Source of the DNA: Chloroflexota bacterium
GTDB lineage: Bacteria > Chloroflexota > Anaerolineae > Anaerolineales > DRMV01
NCBI GenBank assembly: GCA_013153135.1
Contig: JAADFA010000059.1
Location: 1-32,612 of the forward strand
Length of the DNA stretch: 32,612 nt
Direction of reading: 5' to 3'
The position numbers and the translations under genes were made by a program. Below the pieces are notes generated by a model. It saw nothing but the letters and a program-made list of their open reading frames with translations. It made no database searches and was not told where the DNA came from. Positions 6,155 through 32,612 of this stretch are shown piece by piece (the first letter of the stretch is position 1; each line of letters begins with the position of its first letter).

Positions 6155-6183
6155 GTGTCCCTCCTATGTAATCGCAGAGGCGC

Positions 6184-6192
6184 TGGTATGAT
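6184..6192 (+). promoter_or_regulatory. Putative extended -10 promoter TGGTATGAT for the pseudouridine synthase gene
   Basis: TGnTATGAT 32 nt upstream of the ATG at 6224. Confidence 0.4.
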
Positions 6193-6223
6193 TTCGGCAT
6201 CCAAATATGAGGAGGCGGTAAGG

Positions 6224-6922
6224 ATGACCGTACCAACGGTCTTGCACGCGGACGAGGATGTGTTGGTGATCAACAAACCCGTTGGGCTGTTGTCCATACC
6301 CGATGGGTACGATCCGAACAAACCGCATGTGCGCGCCCTCCTGGAACCGGAATGGGGTCGGTTGTGGATTGTCCATCGGCTGGATAAGGATACGTCGGGC
6401 GTGATGGTGCTTGCGCGCAACGCGGACGCGCATAAACGCTTAAACCGTGCGTTTGAACAGGGTGAAGTAACGAAAGTGTATCACGCGTTGGTGCGCGGGA
6501 ACCCGGATTGGCAAACCAAAGAGGCGGCATGGCCTTTGCGCCCGAACGTGGGGAGACGTAAGCGCACGGTGGTGGATCCGCGTCGGGGTAAGCCTGCGCG
6601 TACCCACTTCCGGGTGCTCGAGCGGTTTGGTTCGCACGCGCTGGTTGAAGCCATCCCGCTCACGGGGCGACGGCATCAAATCCGCGCGCATTTGTACGCT
6701 TTAGGCCATCCGATTGTGGGCGATCCGTTGTATGGACCGGGGCCGCTGCCGGAGGACCCGCTGCCGCACCTGGGTTTGCACGCGCGGCGGTTGGTCTTTC
6801 CGCACCCGCGAACGCAGGAGACGATCGCAGTAACCGCGCCTTACCCCGCGACCTGGGATCGCGCGTTCGAAGCACTGCTCTTCGAGAAGGCGTGGGTCGA
6901 CCGAGACGAGACCGAAGGCTAA
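6224..6922 (+). CDS. RluA-family pseudouridine synthase
   Basis: HRLDKDTSGVMVLARN catalytic motif, LTGRRHQIRAHLYALGHPIVGDPLYG. SD ggagg at 6211 favours ATG 6224 over 6155. Confidence 0.92.
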   Translation: MTVPTVLHADEDVLVINKPVGLLSIPDGYDPNKPHVRALLEPEWGRLWIVHRLDKDTSGVMVLARNADAHKRLNRAFEQGEVTKVYHALVRGNPDWQTKEAAWPLRPNVGRRKRTVVDPRRGKPARTHFRVLERFGSHALVEAIPLTGRRHQIRAHLYALGHPIVGDPLYGPGPLPEDPLPHLGLHARRLVFPHPRTQETIAVTAPYPATWDRAFEALLFEKAWVDRDETEG

Positions 6923-7027
6923 GGCGCGCTTGTGGGGCAGGCCGAGACCGCGCGGTCGATGCCGCGCAATGGCGCCCGCGCGGTTGGCTTAATGGGCTTT
7001 CGCCCTGGCCACAGCCTTGTTGGGGGA

Positions 7028-7049
7028 ACGCAAAAGTTGTAGAAAGGCC
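7028..7049 (+). repeat. Short repeat motif ACGCAAAAGTTGTAGAAAGGCC
   Basis: Near-identical to 12045-12066 (ACGCAAAGGTTGTAGAACGGTC); resembles the head of the dispersed repeat family (GCAAAnCTCGTAG). Confidence 0.5.
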
Positions 7050-7062
7050 AATCGCTCGCGTA

Positions 7063-7206
7063 CCGCGGGCGCCGCGGCTAGAAGCCTGTGGCTAGTTGGC
7101 ATAAAATCGCGCGTGAATCATCCGGCCCAGCGCGCAGGAACGCGTGGCCGACGGCGAGCATAGCGGGCTGGTTTCGCCGCCCGCGCATAAGATTTGCCCG
7201 CATCCC
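7063..7206 (-). repeat. Dispersed intergenic repeat, copy A (diverged, reverse orientation)
   Basis: Reverse complement TGCGGGCAAATCTTATGCGCGGGCGGCGAAACCAGCCCGCTATGCTCGCCG...GATTTTATGCCAACTAGCCACAGGCTTCTAGCC aligns along its length to the copies at 17818 and 32417. Confidence 0.8.
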
Positions 7207-11827: not shown

Positions 11828-12044
11828 CGACTCCTGTGCTCGGGGATGGTTCGAATTGTACCCTGGGATGCGGAGATTGCTAAATGAGAAACCCTGCAAA
11901 AAGGGCGTCTAAAACATATCTATTGTGTGGGAGTTGGCAGGATGGTGGTTTGTATGTGGAAAAGTGACAGCCTGGCGTCTTTTTGCGCGACAAATAAGGG
12001 TTTTGGGTGGATTTGACGGCCATACATACATGGTCGCTTGGGGC

Positions 12045-12066
12045 ACGCAAAGGTTGTAGAACGGTC
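12045..12066 (+). repeat. Short repeat motif ACGCAAAGGTTGTAGAACGGTC (second occurrence)
   Basis: Matches 7028-7049 at all but three positions, with flanking GGGG in both. Confidence 0.5.
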
Positions 12067-12103
12067 ATGGGGCGAGGGGGAGGCGCAGGCGCCGCCGCCT
12101 GCG

Positions 12104-12142
12104 GGCCAATCTGCCTGCGGCATGGGTTTCACAAGATTGGCC
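12104..12142. repeat. Inverted repeat GGCCAATCT...AGATTGGCC
   Basis: 9-bp perfect arms at 12104-12112 and 12134-12142, immediately after another hairpin CGCAGGC-GCCGCC-GCCTGCG (12084-12103). Confidence 0.6.
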
Positions 12143-12178
12143 TGCGCCCTCACTTGACCGATACGTACGAAGGAAATG

Positions 12179-12245: not shown

Positions 12246-15200
12246 ATGGCTCGTAGATATCAACTACGTCCATGGCCTTTTTTGCTTTTTTTAGGCCTAG
12301 GCGTATCAGTGGCGTTGTTGTTTAGTGCCCGCCAACTAGGGGCCGCGTATGGTGCCGCGGTGCGGCCGTTGCGTTTGGTGAGCGGACTTACCTGGTTGCC
12401 TTCCGTGGCTCCCGATAACGTTACCGTACAACCTGAGGAATATTTCGCCGGGCTGTACTTCCGGGTAATCCAATTCCGCGAGGTGCCCCCTTATGAGGTG
12501 CGCCAGCAATGGGCCCAAGAGGGTTTGCACCTGCTGGACTACATTCCGGAAAACACCTATATCGCAGCCATTGACGCCCGTTTTCCCCTTGAGCGCTTGA
12601 AGGACTGGGCCGTAACCATTGCCCCTGTGCCAGAAACCTTGCGCGAGACGCGCGCTGTTCGGGCCCATGTGCGGGCCTTGCAAGCTTCACGCGGGGCAAC
12701 CCAGGCTCTTGAGGATAACTTGGCTCATCTAACTTTGGGCTACTACGCGGCTTTGAAGCCCGCGGATGTGCTCCGCGCGCTTAAGGCCTTGGGCGTGATG
12801 GTTGAGGCTCATCGTCCCTACTCATATCAAATTGACATCGCCCTCCCCGTGAGCCTGGTGGATGCAGTCCGTCAACAGCCATATGTGCAGTATTTAGATG
12901 TCAATCCCCGCTATCGCCCTGTGTATTTAGAAATTCTCCCCTCTGCCGACCTCACCGATGAAGGCTACGAGGGCCCAGCCTCAGGTCGCGCGAATTACCT
13001 CAACACAGGCTATATAGGCAAAGTATATCGCGGCGATGGCATTGTCATCTCCCCGGCTGAAGGGGGCATCGTGGACCCCGAGTACGCGGAGGATTTTCAA
13101 GGACGTTTGATAGAGCTCGTTGCTGACTCCGTAAGCACGCATAAAACCAACGTCGCGATTCGTATGGCCGGGGGTGGGAACCTGGACCCCTTGTGGCGCG
13201 GCATCGCCTGGGGCGCCACCATCCTTAGCCTGAATTATTTCCCCGATTACGCGGACATGATCGACCGCTACAACGCCCGTTACTTCAACCACTCGTACGG
13301 CTTTGGCGTGGAAGGAGGTTATGACGCTGCCGCCCGCGACCACGACTTGCGTATCGTTACGTATCCCAAACATATGGTGGTGTATTCCGCGGGTAATGAT
13401 GGGGGCAGTACGGGATATGCTCCTTATGATACGTTGACCGGTGGCTGGGGCACTATTACAGGTGCACGTAAGCAGAATAAAAACCACCTCGCGGTCGCTG
13501 CGCTTGATGCTCTGGATGTGGTGACCTCCTTCAGCAGCCGCGGGCCCGCGCAAGACGGCCGCATTATTCCTCAGGTCGCCATCCAGGGCCGCAGTGGTAC
13601 GTCGTACGCGGCGCCCCGCGTGACGGGTTTACTTGCCTTGCTCAATGAGGTTTTCCAAGATAAGCAAGGCTACGAGCCCCCATCCATCCTTTTGCGCGCT
13701 ATCCTGCTCGCGACGGCCGACGATGTTGACATCCCTGGCCCTGACTTCCGTACAGGATTCGGTCGTCCTAACGCACGCCGCGCCTATCGGGTCATTGACC
13801 AAGGTTGGTTCTTCGAGGGTAGCCTCACCAATACCGGCGATACGTGGACGCGCACGTTGACTGTTCCATCCAACACCAGCCAGCTGCGGGTCATGCTTAT
13901 GTGGCCAGACCCCGCGGCCGTGGTCAACGCAAACCCCGCTATTGTCAATGACCTTGACCTCACCGTCGTGGCACCCGACACGACGGTTTATCGTCCTTGG
14001 GTGCCTGACCATACTCCTGATGAAACCCGGTTGACTTCGCCCGCTACCCGCCAAGAAGATCACCTCAACACCATGGAGCTGGTTACCGTAGATAACCCCA
14101 CACCAGGCCCCTGGGTGGTAACGGTGACCGGTTATAACGTGCCTAGCGGCCCGCAGTCGTTTTATGTCGTATATGAATTTGTGCCTCAGGAGCTGGTTTT
14201 GACCTTCCCCTTGCAAGATGTGCGCTTTGATGAAGGTCAAACTTATATTATCAAATGGGATAGCTACGGCGGGAGTGATACGTTTACGCTAGAGTATCAG
14301 ATCGATGGCGGCACATGGCAGACCATCGCGACGGGCCTGTCCGCCGAAACCCGGAATTACGCCTGGACGACCCCGCGTTTGGGTTCTGGGGTGCACACCC
14401 TGCAAGTGCGTGTTCGCCAAGGTTCCAATGAGTCAGTTAGCGGCATCAACTACCTTGGCGGGGTGCCCCACGATGTGCGGGTCGATTGGGTGTGTGGGGA
14501 TACTGTCAAGCTGTCGTGGACGCCGGCCCTTGGCGTGGATGGCTACCGCGTTTACACCATGGGCGCGAAGTATATGGAGGTTATCACAACAGGGGTTACC
14601 TTTGATGGCGCGAGCGCGATCATTACCGGCGTCCCGGCAGGTCGTCAGATCTTTGCCGTCAGTGGCTACACGGGCGCGAATGAGAGCCTGCGGACGCCCG
14701 CGGCGGTCAAAACCGATGAAGATGAAGCGCGCTGCCCCTACTTGGAGACCCGGCCGTCCAGCCAGGTCGACAAATCCACCATGACGCTACGCGGCGCGGC
14801 GTCGTCCCACGGCCGCGTGTTGGATGATGTGCGGTTTGAGTATGGCGACAGCGCCATCTTGGGCAATACGACGGACCCTATCCCGGTCACAGCCAGCGGG
14901 CCGGAGCTCGAACCTGTGACCGTGGACCTGCCCTCGACCTTGCAAAGCCGGAGCGATGTACTCTACTACCGCTTGACCGGCCTGCTGGATGGTTCCTTGC
15001 TACAGGGTGCGGTTCACCAAGCTCGACTCGCACCAGGCTATATGGTTGAGTTGCTCTTCGATTCGCCGCGGCGCATCGTCAGCGAGGTTGGCCGTTATCA
15101 GGCTTTGGGCAACAATGCACGTACCCTCGCGTTCTGGTTCCTGGCTTATTCGGGCTCAGTCGGCCTGTTTGAAGAGGGTGACCCTGCGTATCCTAACGGC

Positions 15201-17750
15201 TTTTTTGCCGTGTATAACACAACTTACAGCGACACCACGTGGCACATTGTGGCCGGGAATGTGTCCTTTGACGTCGATTTGCCTGGAAGTCGCTTCTCGT
15301 GGCACCACTTGGCTTTGGTGTACGACGGCGGGGGGAACCTGTACGTGTATTATGACGGCGAACTGGTTCATACCCAGACCGGTGTTGAGCTCAACACGCC
15401 AGCCAGCGCGCTCACTTTTGGCCATGGCGGCGGGTACGATTTCAAAGGTTATCTGGACGAAATCAGCTATTGGACCCTCGCGCTGGACCAGAGCCGCATC
15501 CGTCAGATCATGCATCACCCCCTACGCGGCGATGAGGCTGGGCTTCAGCTGTACTACAACTTTGACGACCTGGATCACGCAGCCATCAACGTCGTGGATG
15601 GCCGCGAGCAGGTGCTCGAACATGGCGAGCTCACGCTCTCCAGCGCGCCGATGGGCGCGGGCGCGACCGTGCTTGCGAGCGAAACTGTGGGCCTGGTGGA
15701 CGCGAGCGCTGCGGGGGTGCAGCTGAACTTCCATACCGCCGAATCTGCAGACTTGATCGTCAGCCGCATTGATATTGACCCCTATGGCTTGAGCTCGTTG
15801 AGCAGCAGCTACACCGTTTTGGATGAGCAGTATTGGGTCATCCATCGCATCGGCGCAACAGGGACCTTTAGCGCGGATGTGACCTTCAAAGTTGCGGAAC
15901 CCCTGTCCAGCCTCGACGCCGCGCGTCCGGATCGGCTACGGCTTTACCAACGCAGCAAATCCTCTGCTTCTTCGACCGCGTGGAGCTTCGTCACGACGGC
16001 AACCCAGGTCAACTTGGCTACCAATGAGATCACCTTCCCCAACCTGACCGCGTTTGATAAGCAATTCGTTATTGTACGCGATACCAGCATTACCCCCAGC
16101 GCAGATGTCGCGGTGACCAAGGTCGCGGATGTGGACCCGGTTCTAGTTGGTCAGGAGTTGACTTACACCATCACTGTGAGCAACAACGGCCCAGACGCCG
16201 CAAGCGACGTGGTGGTTACCGATACCTTATCCTCAGATGTCACTTATGTGCGGGATACCTGTAGCGGTAGCTTGAGCGGGGACACCTGGACGTGGAACGT
16301 GGGCCTGCTCGGCAGCGGCGACACGCTTTCGTGTCAGTTGACCGTGCGGGTCGCCCTGACGGCATCTGCTCCCCTAACCAACACGGTAACTGTCGATACT
16401 TCGGCTGACGATCCGGATTCGAGCAACAACCAAACGAGCATACAAACCCAGATCTTGCAGGCTGCCGACCTCGAGCTCAGCGCGAGCGTAACCCCGACCA
16501 CCGCACAACCCGGCACTTCGGTCGTTTTCACCCTCACCCTGACGAACCAAGGACCCCTCGCGGCCACGGGGGTGCAGGTGACCGCAGCTCTGCCGTCAGG
16601 CTTTGTGTATGTGGACGCGACCGCCACCCAGGGCACCTATGATCCCGAGCGCGGCGTTTGGGAGGTGGGTACCCTTGACGCGGGCGCGCGCGCTGTGCTC
16701 ACTTTGACCGCAACCGTGCAAGATGGCGAGCATCGACTTACGGCTGAGGTCACCGCGGTGGACCAGCCCGATCCAGATTCCACGCCAGGCGATGGTATGG
16801 GCGATGACTACGTCGAGGTCACCGTTACCTATCAACCAGCCGTTGACCTTGAAGTGCACATGGATGTGCAGCCCGCGGAGCCGAGCTATCACGACGTGGT
16901 GACCTTCACTTTGAGTGTGACCAACGTTCCGCCCGCGTCCACCGCGACGGGAGTGCGCATCCAAGCCTTTTGGAACAATGGGTACGCTTACCTCGAGCAC
17001 CGCGCCAGCCAAGGTGCGGTCACGGTCACCTTCGCGTCGACCCACATCACGTGGGATGTAGGCGAAGTTGCCCCTGGGCAGACGGCGACGTTGACTGTTC
17101 GTTTGCGTGTGCTCCCCGAGCCGCCTTTGTGGGATGTGTGGGCCGAGTTGGTGGCTGTGGACCAACCCGATCTCGACTCCATCCCTGGCGATCACCAGGG
17201 GGATGACTACGCGTCCCTGCGCCTGCAACCTAAATTGCCCGCCACCGGGTTCGCACCGGGCCGGGTTACCCATCTGCCACCGCAGCCCGCGTCCTTGAGC
17301 TACGCGACCACCTCGATGGTGCTCGAGATCCCGCGGCTCGGTACCCAGGCGGAAGTCGTGGGCGTACCTTCGGGCGCAGCGGAAAGCATTGCTTACTTAG
17401 GCCCGCGGGTAGGGTATATCCAGAGCTCCACCTTCCCGACTTGGCGCGGCAATAGCGTGCTCACCGGGCACAATTATCTGCCTGATGGATTGCCCGGACC
17501 CTTCTGGGGCTTGAAGCAGCTACGTTGGGGCGACGTAGTACGGTTGCATTACCAAGGATGGGTGTACGAATACGAAGTGCGCGATGTGCGCGTTGTTTCG
17601 CCAACAGATGCATGGCCTATGGAGCCTATTGAAGATGGGCATGTTTGGTTGACGTTGATCACATGCGACGGGTATGACCCGCGGGCGCGAGCGGCCCAAG
17701 CGCGGGTCGTGGTCCGTGCGGTGCTGATGCGGGTGATGCCAGCGCCTTGA
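12246..17750 (+). CDS. Secreted multidomain protein: signal peptide, subtilisin-like S8 domain, LamG-like region, DUF11-like repeats, LPATG motif, C-terminal sortase domain
   Basis: Signal peptide WPFLLFLGLGVSVALLF; S8 elements THKTNVA (His299), YSAGNDGG, FSSRGP, GTSYAAPRVTG (Ser453); LamG-like WHHLALVYDGGGNLYVYYDGELV; DUF11-like ADVAVTKVADVDPVLVGQELTYTITVSNNGPDAASDVVVTDTL; LPATG at residues 1664-1668; sortase LTGHNY (His1742), TLITC (Cys1807), ARVVVRA. Confidence 0.88.
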   Translation: MARRYQLRPWPFLLFLGLGVSVALLFSARQLGAAYGAAVRPLRLVSGLTWLPSVAPDNVTVQPEEYFAGLYFRVIQFREVPPYEVRQQWAQEGLHLLDYIPENTYIAAIDARFPLERLKDWAVTIAPVPETLRETRAVRAHVRALQASRGATQALEDNLAHLTLGYYAALKPADVLRALKALGVMVEAHRPYSYQIDIALPVSLVDAVRQQPYVQYLDVNPRYRPVYLEILPSADLTDEGYEGPASGRANYLNTGYIGKVYRGDGIVISPAEGGIVDPEYAEDFQGRLIELVADSVSTHKTNVAIRMAGGGNLDPLWRGIAWGATILSLNYFPDYADMIDRYNARYFNHSYGFGVEGGYDAAARDHDLRIVTYPKHMVVYSAGNDGGSTGYAPYDTLTGGWGTITGARKQNKNHLAVAALDALDVVTSFSSRGPAQDGRIIPQVAIQGRSGTSYAAPRVTGLLALLNEVFQDKQGYEPPSILLRAILLATADDVDIPGPDFRTGFGRPNARRAYRVIDQGWFFEGSLTNTGDTWTRTLTVPSNTSQLRVMLMWPDPAAVVNANPAIVNDLDLTVVAPDTTVYRPWVPDHTPDETRLTSPATRQEDHLNTMELVTVDNPTPGPWVVTVTGYNVPSGPQSFYVVYEFVPQELVLTFPLQDVRFDEGQTYIIKWDSYGGSDTFTLEYQIDGGTWQTIATGLSAETRNYAWTTPRLGSGVHTLQVRVRQGSNESVSGINYLGGVPHDVRVDWVCGDTVKLSWTPALGVDGYRVYTMGAKYMEVITTGVTFDGASAIITGVPAGRQIFAVSGYTGANESLRTPAAVKTDEDEARCPYLETRPSSQVDKSTMTLRGAASSHGRVLDDVRFEYGDSAILGNTTDPIPVTASGPELEPVTVDLPSTLQSRSDVLYYRLTGLLDGSLLQGAVHQARLAPGYMVELLFDSPRRIVSEVGRYQALGNNARTLAFWFLAYSGSVGLFEEGDPAYPNGFFAVYNTTYSDTTWHIVAGNVSFDVDLPGSRFSWHHLALVYDGGGNLYVYYDGELVHTQTGVELNTPASALTFGHGGGYDFKGYLDEISYWTLALDQSRIRQIMHHPLRGDEAGLQLYYNFDDLDHAAINVVDGREQVLEHGELTLSSAPMGAGATVLASETVGLVDASAAGVQLNFHTAESADLIVSRIDIDPYGLSSLSSSYTVLDEQYWVIHRIGATGTFSADVTFKVAEPLSSLDAARPDRLRLYQRSKSSASSTAWSFVTTATQVNLATNEITFPNLTAFDKQFVIVRDTSITPSADVAVTKVADVDPVLVGQELTYTITVSNNGPDAASDVVVTDTLSSDVTYVRDTCSGSLSGDTWTWNVGLLGSGDTLSCQLTVRVALTASAPLTNTVTVDTSADDPDSSNNQTSIQTQILQAADLELSASVTPTTAQPGTSVVFTLTLTNQGPLAATGVQVTAALPSGFVYVDATATQGTYDPERGVWEVGTLDAGARAVLTLTATVQDGEHRLTAEVTAVDQPDPDSTPGDGMGDDYVEVTVTYQPAVDLEVHMDVQPAEPSYHDVVTFTLSVTNVPPASTATGVRIQAFWNNGYAYLEHRASQGAVTVTFASTHITWDVGEVAPGQTATLTVRLRVLPEPPLWDVWAELVAVDQPDLDSIPGDHQGDDYASLRLQPKLPATGFAPGRVTHLPPQPASLSYATTSMVLEIPRLGTQAEVVGVPSGAAESIAYLGPRVGYIQSSTFPTWRGNSVLTGHNYLPDGLPGPFWGLKQLRWGDVVRLHYQGWVYEYEVRDVRVVSPTDAWPMEPIEDGHVWLTLITCDGYDPRARAAQARVVVRAVLMRVMPAP

Positions 17751-17815: not shown

Positions 17816-17817
17816 TG

Positions 17818-17956
17818 TTCATGTGAGTGCAGGCAAATCTCGTAGCGGGCGGCGGAAGCCGCCCGCTATCCTCGCTGCCCGCGCGTTGGGCTGAACTACC
17901 CGCGTGTAATTTTATGTAAACTAGTCGCAGGCTGAAGCCTGCGGCGGCGCCAACGG
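17818..17956 (+). repeat. Dispersed intergenic repeat, copy C
   Basis: Contains hairpin TAGCGGGCGGC-GGAA-GCCGCCCGCTA and palindrome CGCAGGCT-GA-AGCCTGCG; its last ~75 bp nearly match 32612-terminal copy D. Confidence 0.85.
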
Positions 17957-17974
17957 CGATAGCCCCTGTTCATG

Positions 17975-19342
17975 TTATTGGGGCCGCGTGTTCTTTCGTG
18001 AGGGGAAGTCAGGAATTTGCGACTGCAGCCATGCGAGCGCGTCATCCCGGGTGCGCACGTGGCCTTCGATTTGGGCCATTCGTAACGCGCGCAGCAGCTC
18101 ACCGAAGCGTGGACCAGGCTTCAGGCCCAGGGCACGCAAATCGTGACCGGTGAGCAAGGGCTTGAGGTCGCGGTCGTGACGCAGGTAGCGGTCCAGCGTG
18201 GCACGCAACGGGGGTGACGCAGCCAGCGCGAGGGCAGCCACTGCGGGGCGGGGGTACTGATCCAGGTGCAAGGCCAAGGCGCCAGGTCGCAGGGTAGCCC
18301 AGCGCGCGCGGGTACGCCAGAGCTCAGCCGCGGCGTGCACCGTGGTGCGCAGGGCCTTGGGACACGCGAGGCGTTGGCATAGGCCCGTGAGGGCAGCGTC
18401 CGAGAGCGGGAGCCACCACAATGCGTAGCCTACCGCGCGTCGCGTGCGCTCGGGCAAGCCCCACTCGGCCATTCGTGTCGCGTCCAAGGCCCGGAGGTGA
18501 GCCACGCGCTGTTGCGCGTCTGCATCGGTGGGCAGGGCTGGGTGTACCGCGTGCGCCACGCCGTCGGTGCCCAGGCGGCCGATAACTGGGCCTGGGGTCG
18601 GTTCGTCCAGGATGCGGTCCAGCTCGTGCCGTACCCGGTCGCCCGAGAGCCGAGGAATATACGTCACGCCGGAGGGGATCAGCGCTTGGGTCTCGGGTTC
18701 CCATTGGAGTTGATAGCGAACGAGGTAGCGTGCGCCGCGGAAAAGGCGCGTGGGGTCATCCCGAAAAGAAGCGGGATGCAGCACCCGCAGCCAACCTTGT
18801 GCCAAATCCTCCCGGCCGCCGAAGGGGTCGATGAGGGCATCGCCATGCGCAAGGTCGATGGCCATGGCGTTGATGGTGAAATCTCGGCGGTAGAGGTCAC
18901 TGAGCAGCGAACCGGGTTGAACCTGGGGTAACGCGGCCGGTTGGGGGTAGCGCTCGCGGCGTGCTGTGACCAGATCTAGGTGGTCGGGCCATGGGGCCTC
19001 CGCGCGGTGAGGTGTGTGCAAGGTGCGCGCGATAGCTACTGCGGAGGGAAGATGCCAGACCGCGGTACCAAACGCGCGGTGCAGGTGCACGCGGCCGCCA
19101 AAACGGCGTTGCGCTTCACGCGCGAGGACAGGCGCGGTCCAGGCACCGTGGCGGCCTTCAAAGACCAGGTCCAGGTCGAGGCTGGGGCGCCCTAAGAGCC
19201 AATCGCGCACAAAACCTCCTACCAACCGCGCGCGCCATCCTCGGCCCTCGGCCATGTGAGCCAACGCACGCACCAGCGCGGCCAGCGCAGGGGATACCGT
19301 CTGGTGCCAGGGTGGGAGCGGCGAAGCAAGGCGAGGCGCCAT
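17975..19342 (-). CDS. tRNA nucleotidyltransferase / poly(A) polymerase family protein (A-adding-like subtype)
   Basis: RLVGGFVRDWLLGRPSLDLDLVFEG, LLSDLYRRDFTINAMAIDL, IDPFGGREDLAQGWLRVLHPASFRDDPTRLFRGARYLVR. Confidence 0.9.
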   Translation of the reverse strand: MAPRLASPLPPWHQTVSPALAALVRALAHMAEGRGWRARLVGGFVRDWLLGRPSLDLDLVFEGRHGAWTAPVLAREAQRRFGGRVHLHRAFGTAVWHLPSAVAIARTLHTPHRAEAPWPDHLDLVTARRERYPQPAALPQVQPGSLLSDLYRRDFTINAMAIDLAHGDALIDPFGGREDLAQGWLRVLHPASFRDDPTRLFRGARYLVRYQLQWEPETQALIPSGVTYIPRLSGDRVRHELDRILDEPTPGPVIGRLGTDGVAHAVHPALPTDADAQQRVAHLRALDATRMAEWGLPERTRRAVGYALWWLPLSDAALTGLCQRLACPKALRTTVHAAAELWRTRARWATLRPGALALHLDQYPRPAVAALALAASPPLRATLDRYLRHDRDLKPLLTGHDLRALGLKPGPRFGELLRALRMAQIEGHVRTRDDALAWLQSQIPDFPSRKNTRPQ

Positions 19343-27926: not shown

Positions 27927-29457
27927 TCCTCACTTGCGCCCGTTGCCCGAGTTGGCTCTGCAGGTGCGTAGCCTCGGAGGGGCCGACGCGGCGTTGTACC
28001 TGGTCGGTGGCGCGGTGCGGGATTGGCTCTTGGAGCGACCCATCGGTGATCTTGATTTTGTCTTGCCGCAGGGCGCCATTGCTTTTGCCCGCCGCGTGGC
28101 CGATGCCCTCAACGCCGCGTTTTTTGTGCTCGACGCCGAGCGCGATGTGGCGCGCGTGATCGTGCATAAGGGTCCCGAGCGCACGCCCTTGTTCCTGGAT
28201 TTCGCCGCGTTCCGCGGCGCGAACTTGGAGGAAGATTTGCGCGCGCGCGATTTCACCATCAACGCCATGGCCATCGACCCCTTCCAGCCCGAACGTTTGC
28301 ATGACCCAACCCACGGTTTGCAAGACCTTAAGGACAAAATCGTGCGCGTGTGCTACCCTGATGCATTTCGCGATGACCCTATCCGCGTCTTGCGGGCCGT
28401 TCGCTTGGCGGTGCAGCTGGAATTCAAAATGGATCCTGAAACTCAACGTCGACTGCGCGACGACGCGACGCTGCTTGCCCGCAGTACGCCTGAGCGCCAA
28501 CGGGATGAACTTATCCGTATGTTGGCCCATCCCAAAGCCGATAGCGCGTTGCGCGTGGCCGCGGCCTTGGATGCCTTGCCAGTTATATGGCCCGAAATCA
28601 GACTGCTGAAAGATGTGGCCCTCTTCCCCGATCGACCCATGCCAGGATGGGATTACGCGTTGGCCACGGTGCACTATGTGCATCGCCTGATGCAAACTCT
28701 CAGCCGTGAGCACAATCCGGAAGCTAGCGCGAATTTCGCGTTGGGTATGGTCTCGTGGTTGTTGGGGCGTTACCGACGTCAATTGGCTGAGCACTGGACG
28801 ACGCGGTTGCATCCGTATCGTGATGTGCGACCGCTGGTCGTATGGGCCGCGGTATACCACGCGTGGGGCATGACTCAGGTGCGTCCGGTCGCGACGGCGC
28901 ACGGGTGGCAGTATCCAGGTTATGCTGAACACAGTGCGCGCGCGGCCGAGGCACGCGGCCAAGCGCTGCGTTTGAGTCGGGCCGAGGTGCGCCGTTTGGT
29001 CCGCGTGGTTCGTTATCATATTGAACCCCTGCACTTCGCGGAGGATGAGACCGCGCTGGACGATCGAGCCATCCATCGCTTTTTCCGCGCAGCAGGTGAG
29101 GCAGGCATTGATGCAGTATTCATTGCGTTGGCGAGCGTCTTAGCCCGTTACGGGCTCACACCGCCCCATGACCTGTGGGAACGTCACGTGCGGGTGGCTC
29201 GGCGTTTGCTCGAAGCCTGGTGGGAGCGCTACGATCAAGTGATCGAGCCACCAACTTTGTTGCGTGGGGATGAGGTGCAGCAGATTTTGGGCATCCCCGC
29301 GGGGCCAATGGTGGGCTTGGCCTTGCGCGCGCTGCAAGAGGCCCAAGCCGCGGGTGAGATCCACAGCCCTGAGGACGCGACGCAATGGTTGAAGGCTTGG
29401 TATCAAGGCTACCGCTCACGTGATGAGCGAGGTCACACCGCACCTTTGGCCCGTTAG
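27919..29457 (+). CDS. CCA tRNA nucleotidyltransferase / poly(A) polymerase family protein (second family member)
   Basis: LYLVGGAVRDWLLERPIGDLDFVLP, LEEDLRARDFTINAMAID, DPTHGLQDLKDKIVRVCYPDAFRDDPIRVLRAVRLAVQL. SD ggaggagg before ATG 27919, overlapping hpt by 8 nt. Confidence 0.9.
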   Translation: MRNPHLRPLPELALQVRSLGGADAALYLVGGAVRDWLLERPIGDLDFVLPQGAIAFARRVADALNAAFFVLDAERDVARVIVHKGPERTPLFLDFAAFRGANLEEDLRARDFTINAMAIDPFQPERLHDPTHGLQDLKDKIVRVCYPDAFRDDPIRVLRAVRLAVQLEFKMDPETQRRLRDDATLLARSTPERQRDELIRMLAHPKADSALRVAAALDALPVIWPEIRLLKDVALFPDRPMPGWDYALATVHYVHRLMQTLSREHNPEASANFALGMVSWLLGRYRRQLAEHWTTRLHPYRDVRPLVVWAAVYHAWGMTQVRPVATAHGWQYPGYAEHSARAAEARGQALRLSRAEVRRLVRVVRYHIEPLHFAEDETALDDRAIHRFFRAAGEAGIDAVFIALASVLARYGLTPPHDLWERHVRVARRLLEAWWERYDQVIEPPTLLRGDEVQQILGIPAGPMVGLALRALQEAQAAGEIHSPEDATQWLKAWYQGYRSRDERGHTAPLAR

Positions 29458-32416: not shown

Positions 32417-32612
32417 TCCATGGGTGCAGGCAAAGCTCGTAGAAGCCCATGCCGCGGGCGGCTGGACGCGCGCTTGACCCGCGGGCGGCGAAACCCGCCC
32501 GCTATCCTCGCCGTTCCATGTCCCGCGCGCCTCGCGCGTTGGGCTGAACTACCCGCGTGCAATTTTATGCAAACTAGCCGCAGGCTTCAGCCTGCGGCGG
32601 CGGTGCCAACGG
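32417..32612 (+). repeat. Dispersed intergenic repeat, copy D (reaches the window edge)
   Basis: TCCATGGGTGCAGGCAAAGCTCGTAG...GCGGGCGGCGAAACCCGCCCGCTATCCTCG...GCGCGTTGGGCTGAACTACCCGCGTGCAATTTTATGCAAACTAGCCGCAGGCTTCAGCCTGCGGCGGCGGTGCCAACGG. Confidence 0.85.

Follow-up and report, generated by a model that had tools for sequence, protein, structure and literature searches.

A family of palindrome-bearing MITEs, probably mobilised by an ISKra4-family transposase, upstream of promoters in a Chloroflexota genome

Three places in a 32,612-nucleotide contig from a Chloroflexota bacterium carry the same ordered set of sequence blocks, among them GC-rich hairpins. What kind of entity is this repeat, and what accounts for the positions it occupies? 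A first, sequence-only reading of the window (by which we mean the whole 32,612-nucleotide stretch, contig C150) offered two answers, a non-autonomous mobile element (MITE or REP-like) or a family of structured RNAs or terminators, and pointed to compensatory base changes, target-site duplications and a cognate transposase such as TnpA_REP as informative; an absence of further copies, or an origin of the copies in larger segmental duplications, would have spoken against it. The window belongs to a 1.77 Mb draft genome (G000; 161 contigs, 72% complete), and the element, module and flank statistics reported here were computed on fetched loci. Our answer, which we hold with a probability of about 0.93, is that the repeat is a family of MITEs mobilised in trans by an ISKra4-family transposase and inserted, with a 9 bp duplication, at sites upstream of promoters.

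The shared blocks are present in order at all three places and can be aligned over ~110 bp. Copies C and D, described as nearly identical over their last ~75 bp, are 89% identical over 80 nt; the three copies are real, but the window holds four. Used as a query against its own genome, copy C returned 83 matches, dozens of which span most of the element, with a best non-self E-value of 2e-40: the repeat is far beyond chance, and the fear that no further copies exist genome-wide is put to rest. A search of the same genome for half-sites of the terminal inverted repeats (TIRs; pattern GGTGCASGCAAAKNTNGT, up to two mismatches allowed) found 155, as against 8 for a reversed control pattern. Segmental duplication was rejected: the flanks of different copies are unrelated and the copies have target-site duplications of their own.

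A complete copy is a MITE of 110–540 bp with a GC-palindromic interior, bounded by imperfect TIRs of ~23 bp (GGGTGCASGCAAAKNTNGTMGAA). Its sequence reads GGGTGCAGGCAAATCTCGTAGAAGCCCATGCC, a GC hairpin, TATCCTCGCCG, a spacer, GCGCGTTGGGC...AATTTTATG...CTAG and a palindrome; after the palindrome come GGCGACAGCC...CCTCGCC... and TTCTACAACATTTGCGTGCACCC. The loci read contain 77 non-identical inverted TIR pairs, lying 109–541 bp apart. A near-perfect direct repeat of 7–10 bp flanks 26 of the 74 pairs for which both flanks are available; with flanks shuffled between elements the mean is 0.4 and the maximum 3. With the ends placed at GGG/CCC, most of the clear cases show a duplication of 9 bp (TTCGCCAGG, TGCGCAAGC, GTTGGGAAG and others). 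Target-site duplications (TSDs) of the kind that the first reading had recommended looking for are accordingly present. The elements are dispersed, shorter than 600 bp and devoid of a complete transposase ORF, of which only a 3'-end remnant is retained. Nearly all complete copies are intergenic.

The interior is built from a module of ~105 bp, one to three per element, which always points the same way with respect to the two TIR types (44/44 elements). Among the 69 distinct modules in the loci read, 39 have a TIR on both sides, 21 have a TIR on one side and a contig end on the other, 8 have one TIR beside them and 1 stands at a contig end without a TIR; none of the 69 is free-standing away from contig ends. 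The module is present in two genomes, G000 and G003. Elsewhere in the family and order, the MITEs of other genera have these TIRs around different, unrelated interiors that are also rich in hairpins. At two loci of G003 relatives (L112, L116) a pair of TIR-bounded elements stands head to tail, from a few to ~150 bp apart, which suggests repeated insertion in one region.

The boundaries first given to the copies in the window were too short, both element ends having been missed because the terminal repeats went unrecognised: the GTGCAGGCAAAnCTCGTAG block is the left TIR, and the matching repeat on the right was overlooked. Copy C occupies positions 17825–17966 (plus strand) and comprises a left TIR (GAGTGCAGGCAAATCTCGTAG), the interior module and a truncated right end. 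Bases 17818–17824, at which it had been made to start, are part of the left TSD and lie outside the element; this TSD (TGTTCATGT) spans 17816–17824 and recurs at 17967–17975 (TGTTCATGT), where its last base falls within the stop codon of the minus-strand gene at 17975–19342. The module contains GC-rich hairpin 1 at 17845–17866 (plus strand; GCGGGCGGCGGAAGCCGCCCGC) and is closed by a GC-rich palindrome at 17926–17943 (plus strand; CGCAGGCTGAAGCCTGCG). The right TIR and ~45 bp of the IS-derived arm have been lost, and ...GCGATAGCCC runs almost directly into the TSD; a deletion that took place at a CCC microhomology after insertion probably accounts for the loss.

Copy D (32422–32612, plus strand) has a complete left TIR (GGGTGCAGGCAAAGCTCGTAGAAG); the contig stops before its right end is reached. 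Copy A (7022–7206, minus strand) is older and diverged; both terminal repeats are recognisable and no TSD is discernible at its flanks. Its neighbours are a pseudouridine synthase gene (6155–6922, plus strand) and a convergent ORF. The fourth copy, missed by the sequence-only reading, is an element of ~110 bp at 12039–12149 (minus strand) in which the IS-derived arm is present and the interior shortened. It lies upstream of a gene at 12246–17750 (plus strand), whose 1834-aa product is an unusual single-chain fusion of a subtilase domain, a LamG-like domain and DUF11 repeats with a sortase domain at the C terminus.

A TIR scan across 84,980 species genomes identified an intact IS of 1.53 kb, bounded by a TIR pair with no mismatch, on contig JALSGR010000060.1 (L102). 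The IS encodes a 447-aa protein that scores 245.5 bits against NF033572, the NCBIfam model of the ISKra4 transposase (cut-off 205), and 97.8 bits against the ISLre2 model, below the cut-off of 200. The record is binned as Methylothermaceae; its flanks match the window's own family at 73–82% over 0.5–0.9 kb, and it is therefore taken as a misbinned Chloroflexota contig. Both L102 and L091 (JAADDM010000118.1) are filed under gammaproteobacterial MAGs and carry the Chloroflexota element or its parent IS; at least L102 looks misbinned. Two candidates were set aside, a sequence in a different MAG that resembles the TIR but lies within a ribosomal-protein-like coding sequence (L105), taken as a chance match, and a 1.9 kb TIR pairing (L104) that encloses no recognised ISKra4 transposase.

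The assembly of the window's own genome contains no complete transposase gene, the IS being present only as ends at contig breaks. On contig C117 the 5' end of the transposase adjoins the TIR shared with the L102 IS; on contigs C26, C33 and C88 it is the 3' end that adjoins the TIR. Both IS ends thus lie at contig ends, which is where they should fall if the assembly has collapsed the copies of a multicopy IS. The transposase fragments match the L102 protein and are too short to reach the NF033572 cut-off. At two places in this genome (C59:4885–4973, L215, and C52:20726–20983, L007) ~57 bp of an ISKra4 left end stands immediately next to a MITE's left TIR, so that two TIRs follow each other in tandem; C59 and C52 are probably continuous at this junction. 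The right arm of the MITE aligns with the IS end over ~65–70 bp, and therefore contains the 3' end of the ISKra4-family transposase gene; indeed, a protein search with the IS transposase recovers MITE copies through this very stretch. The proposal of a non-autonomous mobile element, specifically a MITE, finds strong support in the TIRs, the 9 bp TSDs and the cognate IS.

The distribution of the elements is informative in its own right. Reading outward from each junction and allowing at most one mismatch to TATAAT, we found a -10 hexamer at 36–40 bp in 88 of 248 flanks; the same test shifted by 6–30 bp gave 1–8 of 248, and random positions 0.6%. The -10 hexamers peak at 37–39 bp from the junction and -35 hexamers at 15–16 bp. 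In the window's own genome (72% complete) an element end lies just upstream of a -35 box in at least 46 flanks. By the strict -10 test 17 of the 31 complete elements of this genome have a promoter on at least one side, and 14 are without. Both ends face promoters (21/62 left-type and 24/59 right-type flanks, own genome), and the direction of the first outward ORF is away from the element in 37 of the 43 flanks with a promoter, as against 38 of the 69 without one. Targets include tRNA genes with visible promoters (Ala, Thr-Tyr, Asn, Leu, Pro); elements stand immediately upstream of tRNA genes at six loci, L002, L017, L022, L044, L056 and L206 (Ala, Thr-Tyr, Asn, Phe-Gly-Cys, Leu and Pro).

The gene context of complete copies in this genome is tandem in 13 cases, divergent in 7 and convergent in 3 (n=23), which makes the convergent placement of copies A and C atypical; copy C, between convergent genes, is an exception to the usual placement of the family. 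No promoter stands at the expected distance from the readable ends of copies A, C and D, which belong to the promoter-less half of the population or have decayed. An orthologous empty site for copy C was found in none of four genus relatives; the comparison says nothing either way, since in these genomes the gene has other neighbours or stands at a contig end.

Insertion 13–17 bp upstream of the -35 box of sigma-A promoters has been described for the ISKra4 group; where the two IRs of an IS resemble each other, either end may face the promoter (Guerillot et al. 2014, PMC3942029). The MITE distance of 15–16 bp falls within this published rule. A published sequence signature of the group's transposases, a conserved Asp between N1 and N2, is linked to promoter targeting. 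Genome G008 has another ISKra4-type IS, with the end GGAGCACTCATAAGTTGTAGAA, at many contig ends (contigs C7, C20, C27, C39, C40 and C53; L154, L232–L237); 6 of 8 right-type flanks in G008 have a -10 at 36–40 bp.

With TIRs, TSDs, ends held in common with the IS, copy number and promoter-relative position all legible in the DNA itself, the mechanism that we propose is as follows. The parent transposase would be a Mutator-like enzyme of the ISKra4 family (p-MULT 4). From its 1.5 kb IS the MITE retains ~25 bp of the left end and the ~65–70 bp of the right end, the latter including the final codons of the transposase gene and its stop; between these IS-derived ends sits the palindromic module, which is specific to the clade. 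A transposase of the L102 type would recognise the terminal repeats in trans and insert the element with duplication of 9 bp of target, preferring sites 15–16 bp upstream of the -35 box of sigma-A-type promoters and placing either end toward the promoter. Movement of the MITE would be recent or ongoing.

Proximity to promoters might instead reflect survivorship, insertions within genes having been lost and those near promoters having remained. The intergenic location of nearly all complete copies is in keeping with this, but purifying selection would not yield a peak 3–5 bp wide at 36–40 bp, from which shifts of 6 bp reduce the count from 88 to 6–8 of 248; moreover, published insertions of autonomous elements, those of the ISKra4 group and TnGBS, lie at the same distance (PMC3942029). 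We consider survivorship improbable, and infer that targeting acts at insertion and not by later selection alone.

Still less credible is a family of structured RNAs or transcription terminators conserved for an RNA fold. The hairpins are strong, and 94.8% of structure cells are paired across 53 copies. Compensatory changes do exist, but essentially at one pair: 11 of the 14 double-sided changes, which are spread over 4 pairs, fall at a single pair and therefore probably stem from one or few events, and pairs with a double-sided change are no commoner than in shuffles (134 of 500 reach the count). Coming mainly from one pair, these changes make no good case for selection at the RNA level. An Rfam scan of the window gave 0 matches, and relatives' MITEs share the TIRs yet have unrelated interiors. 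Nor do the gene contexts fit terminators, for there is no enrichment between convergent genes (3/23).

The notion that the hairpins are themselves the mobile unit, a REP/BIME-type repeat spread by TnpA_REP (RAYT, a Y1 transposase), can draw on GC-rich palindromes, intergenic sites and copies with two or three consecutive modules, but it is every bit as implausible, given that no module of 69 lacks a TIR away from a contig end, that 9 bp TSDs are not expected of REP/RAYT spread, and that a PF01797 (Y1_Tnp) search of G000 and G003, the two module-bearing genomes (72% and 67% complete), found no match.

The MITE family resembles several known systems and differs from each. Its TIRs and subterminal sequence equal those of an IS that passes the ISKra4 model, and it shares with ISKra4-family ISs insertion 13–17 bp upstream of -35 and promoters on either side (PMC3942029); unlike these ISs the 110–540 bp MITEs are without transposase and have a palindromic module unrelated to the IS. 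Like IS-derived bacterial MITEs (PMC3852290; MITEAba12, PMC6382973) they are short and numerous, lack an ORF, and have TSDs and the TIRs of a parent IS, but here the parent is of the ISKra4 family, targeting is promoter-upstream at a fixed distance, and the interior is more than a deletion product of the parent. With REP/BIME elements and REPINs (PMC2817692, PMC3116915) they have in common intergenic GC-rich palindromes, sometimes several in succession; in contrast to those, they are bounded by TIRs and 9 bp TSDs, no RAYT was found, and the partner is of DDE type, not Y1. TnGBS/ISLre2 elements (p-MULT 3; PMC3942029) likewise have a Mutator-like transposase and insert ~15–17 bp upstream of sigma-A promoters, but their transposase family is different (97.8 bits against the ISLre2 model, cut-off 200), and in most of them it is always the same end that faces the promoter, whereas the MITE uses both.

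MITEs, ISKra4 ISs and promoter targeting by the ISKra4 group are all already known, promoter-upstream targeting having been described for autonomous ISs of the group (PMC3942029). An ISKra4-derived MITE family did not emerge from our search of the literature, ISfinder lying outside that search; as far as that literature goes, what is new is such a family, amplified upstream of promoters and containing a palindromic module specific to its clade. The second terminal repeat, the link to ISKra4 and the promoter-upstream placement were all lacking from the sequence-only reading. In the present case the family that has multiplied with the geometry of autonomous ISKra4-group ISs is a non-autonomous one, and many copies stand where they could alter the switching of genes. 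The outcome is a natural experiment in which everything upstream of about -50 has been replaced at many promoters, including tRNA promoters. There is also a practical use: the -35 box can be located from the element end, which gives a promoter finder for a lineage that has not been cultured. Many contigs break off within the element or its parent IS, and this probably accounts for part of the fragmentation of these draft genomes.

As to the hairpins, we would guess that they are carried along passively and may insulate promoters from upstream sequence. A more far-reaching possibility, which we think unlikely, is a genome-wide regulatory layer in which a hairpin cassette at dozens of promoters insulates or regulates, its interior being kept for a host function. 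If this were so, then dozens of protein and tRNA promoters would carry one cassette ending 15–16 bp upstream of -35; the cassette would cut them off from native upstream control or provide a regulatory site common to them all, and its GC-hairpin interior, renewed again and again, would be kept for insulating or for binding a host factor.

One further repeat was noted in the window. A 34-nt inverted match (97%) links positions 18853–18886, within the PolyA_pol-head gene at 17975–19342, to positions 28246–28279 in another gene, which is probably a second nucleotidyltransferase-type gene in the window.
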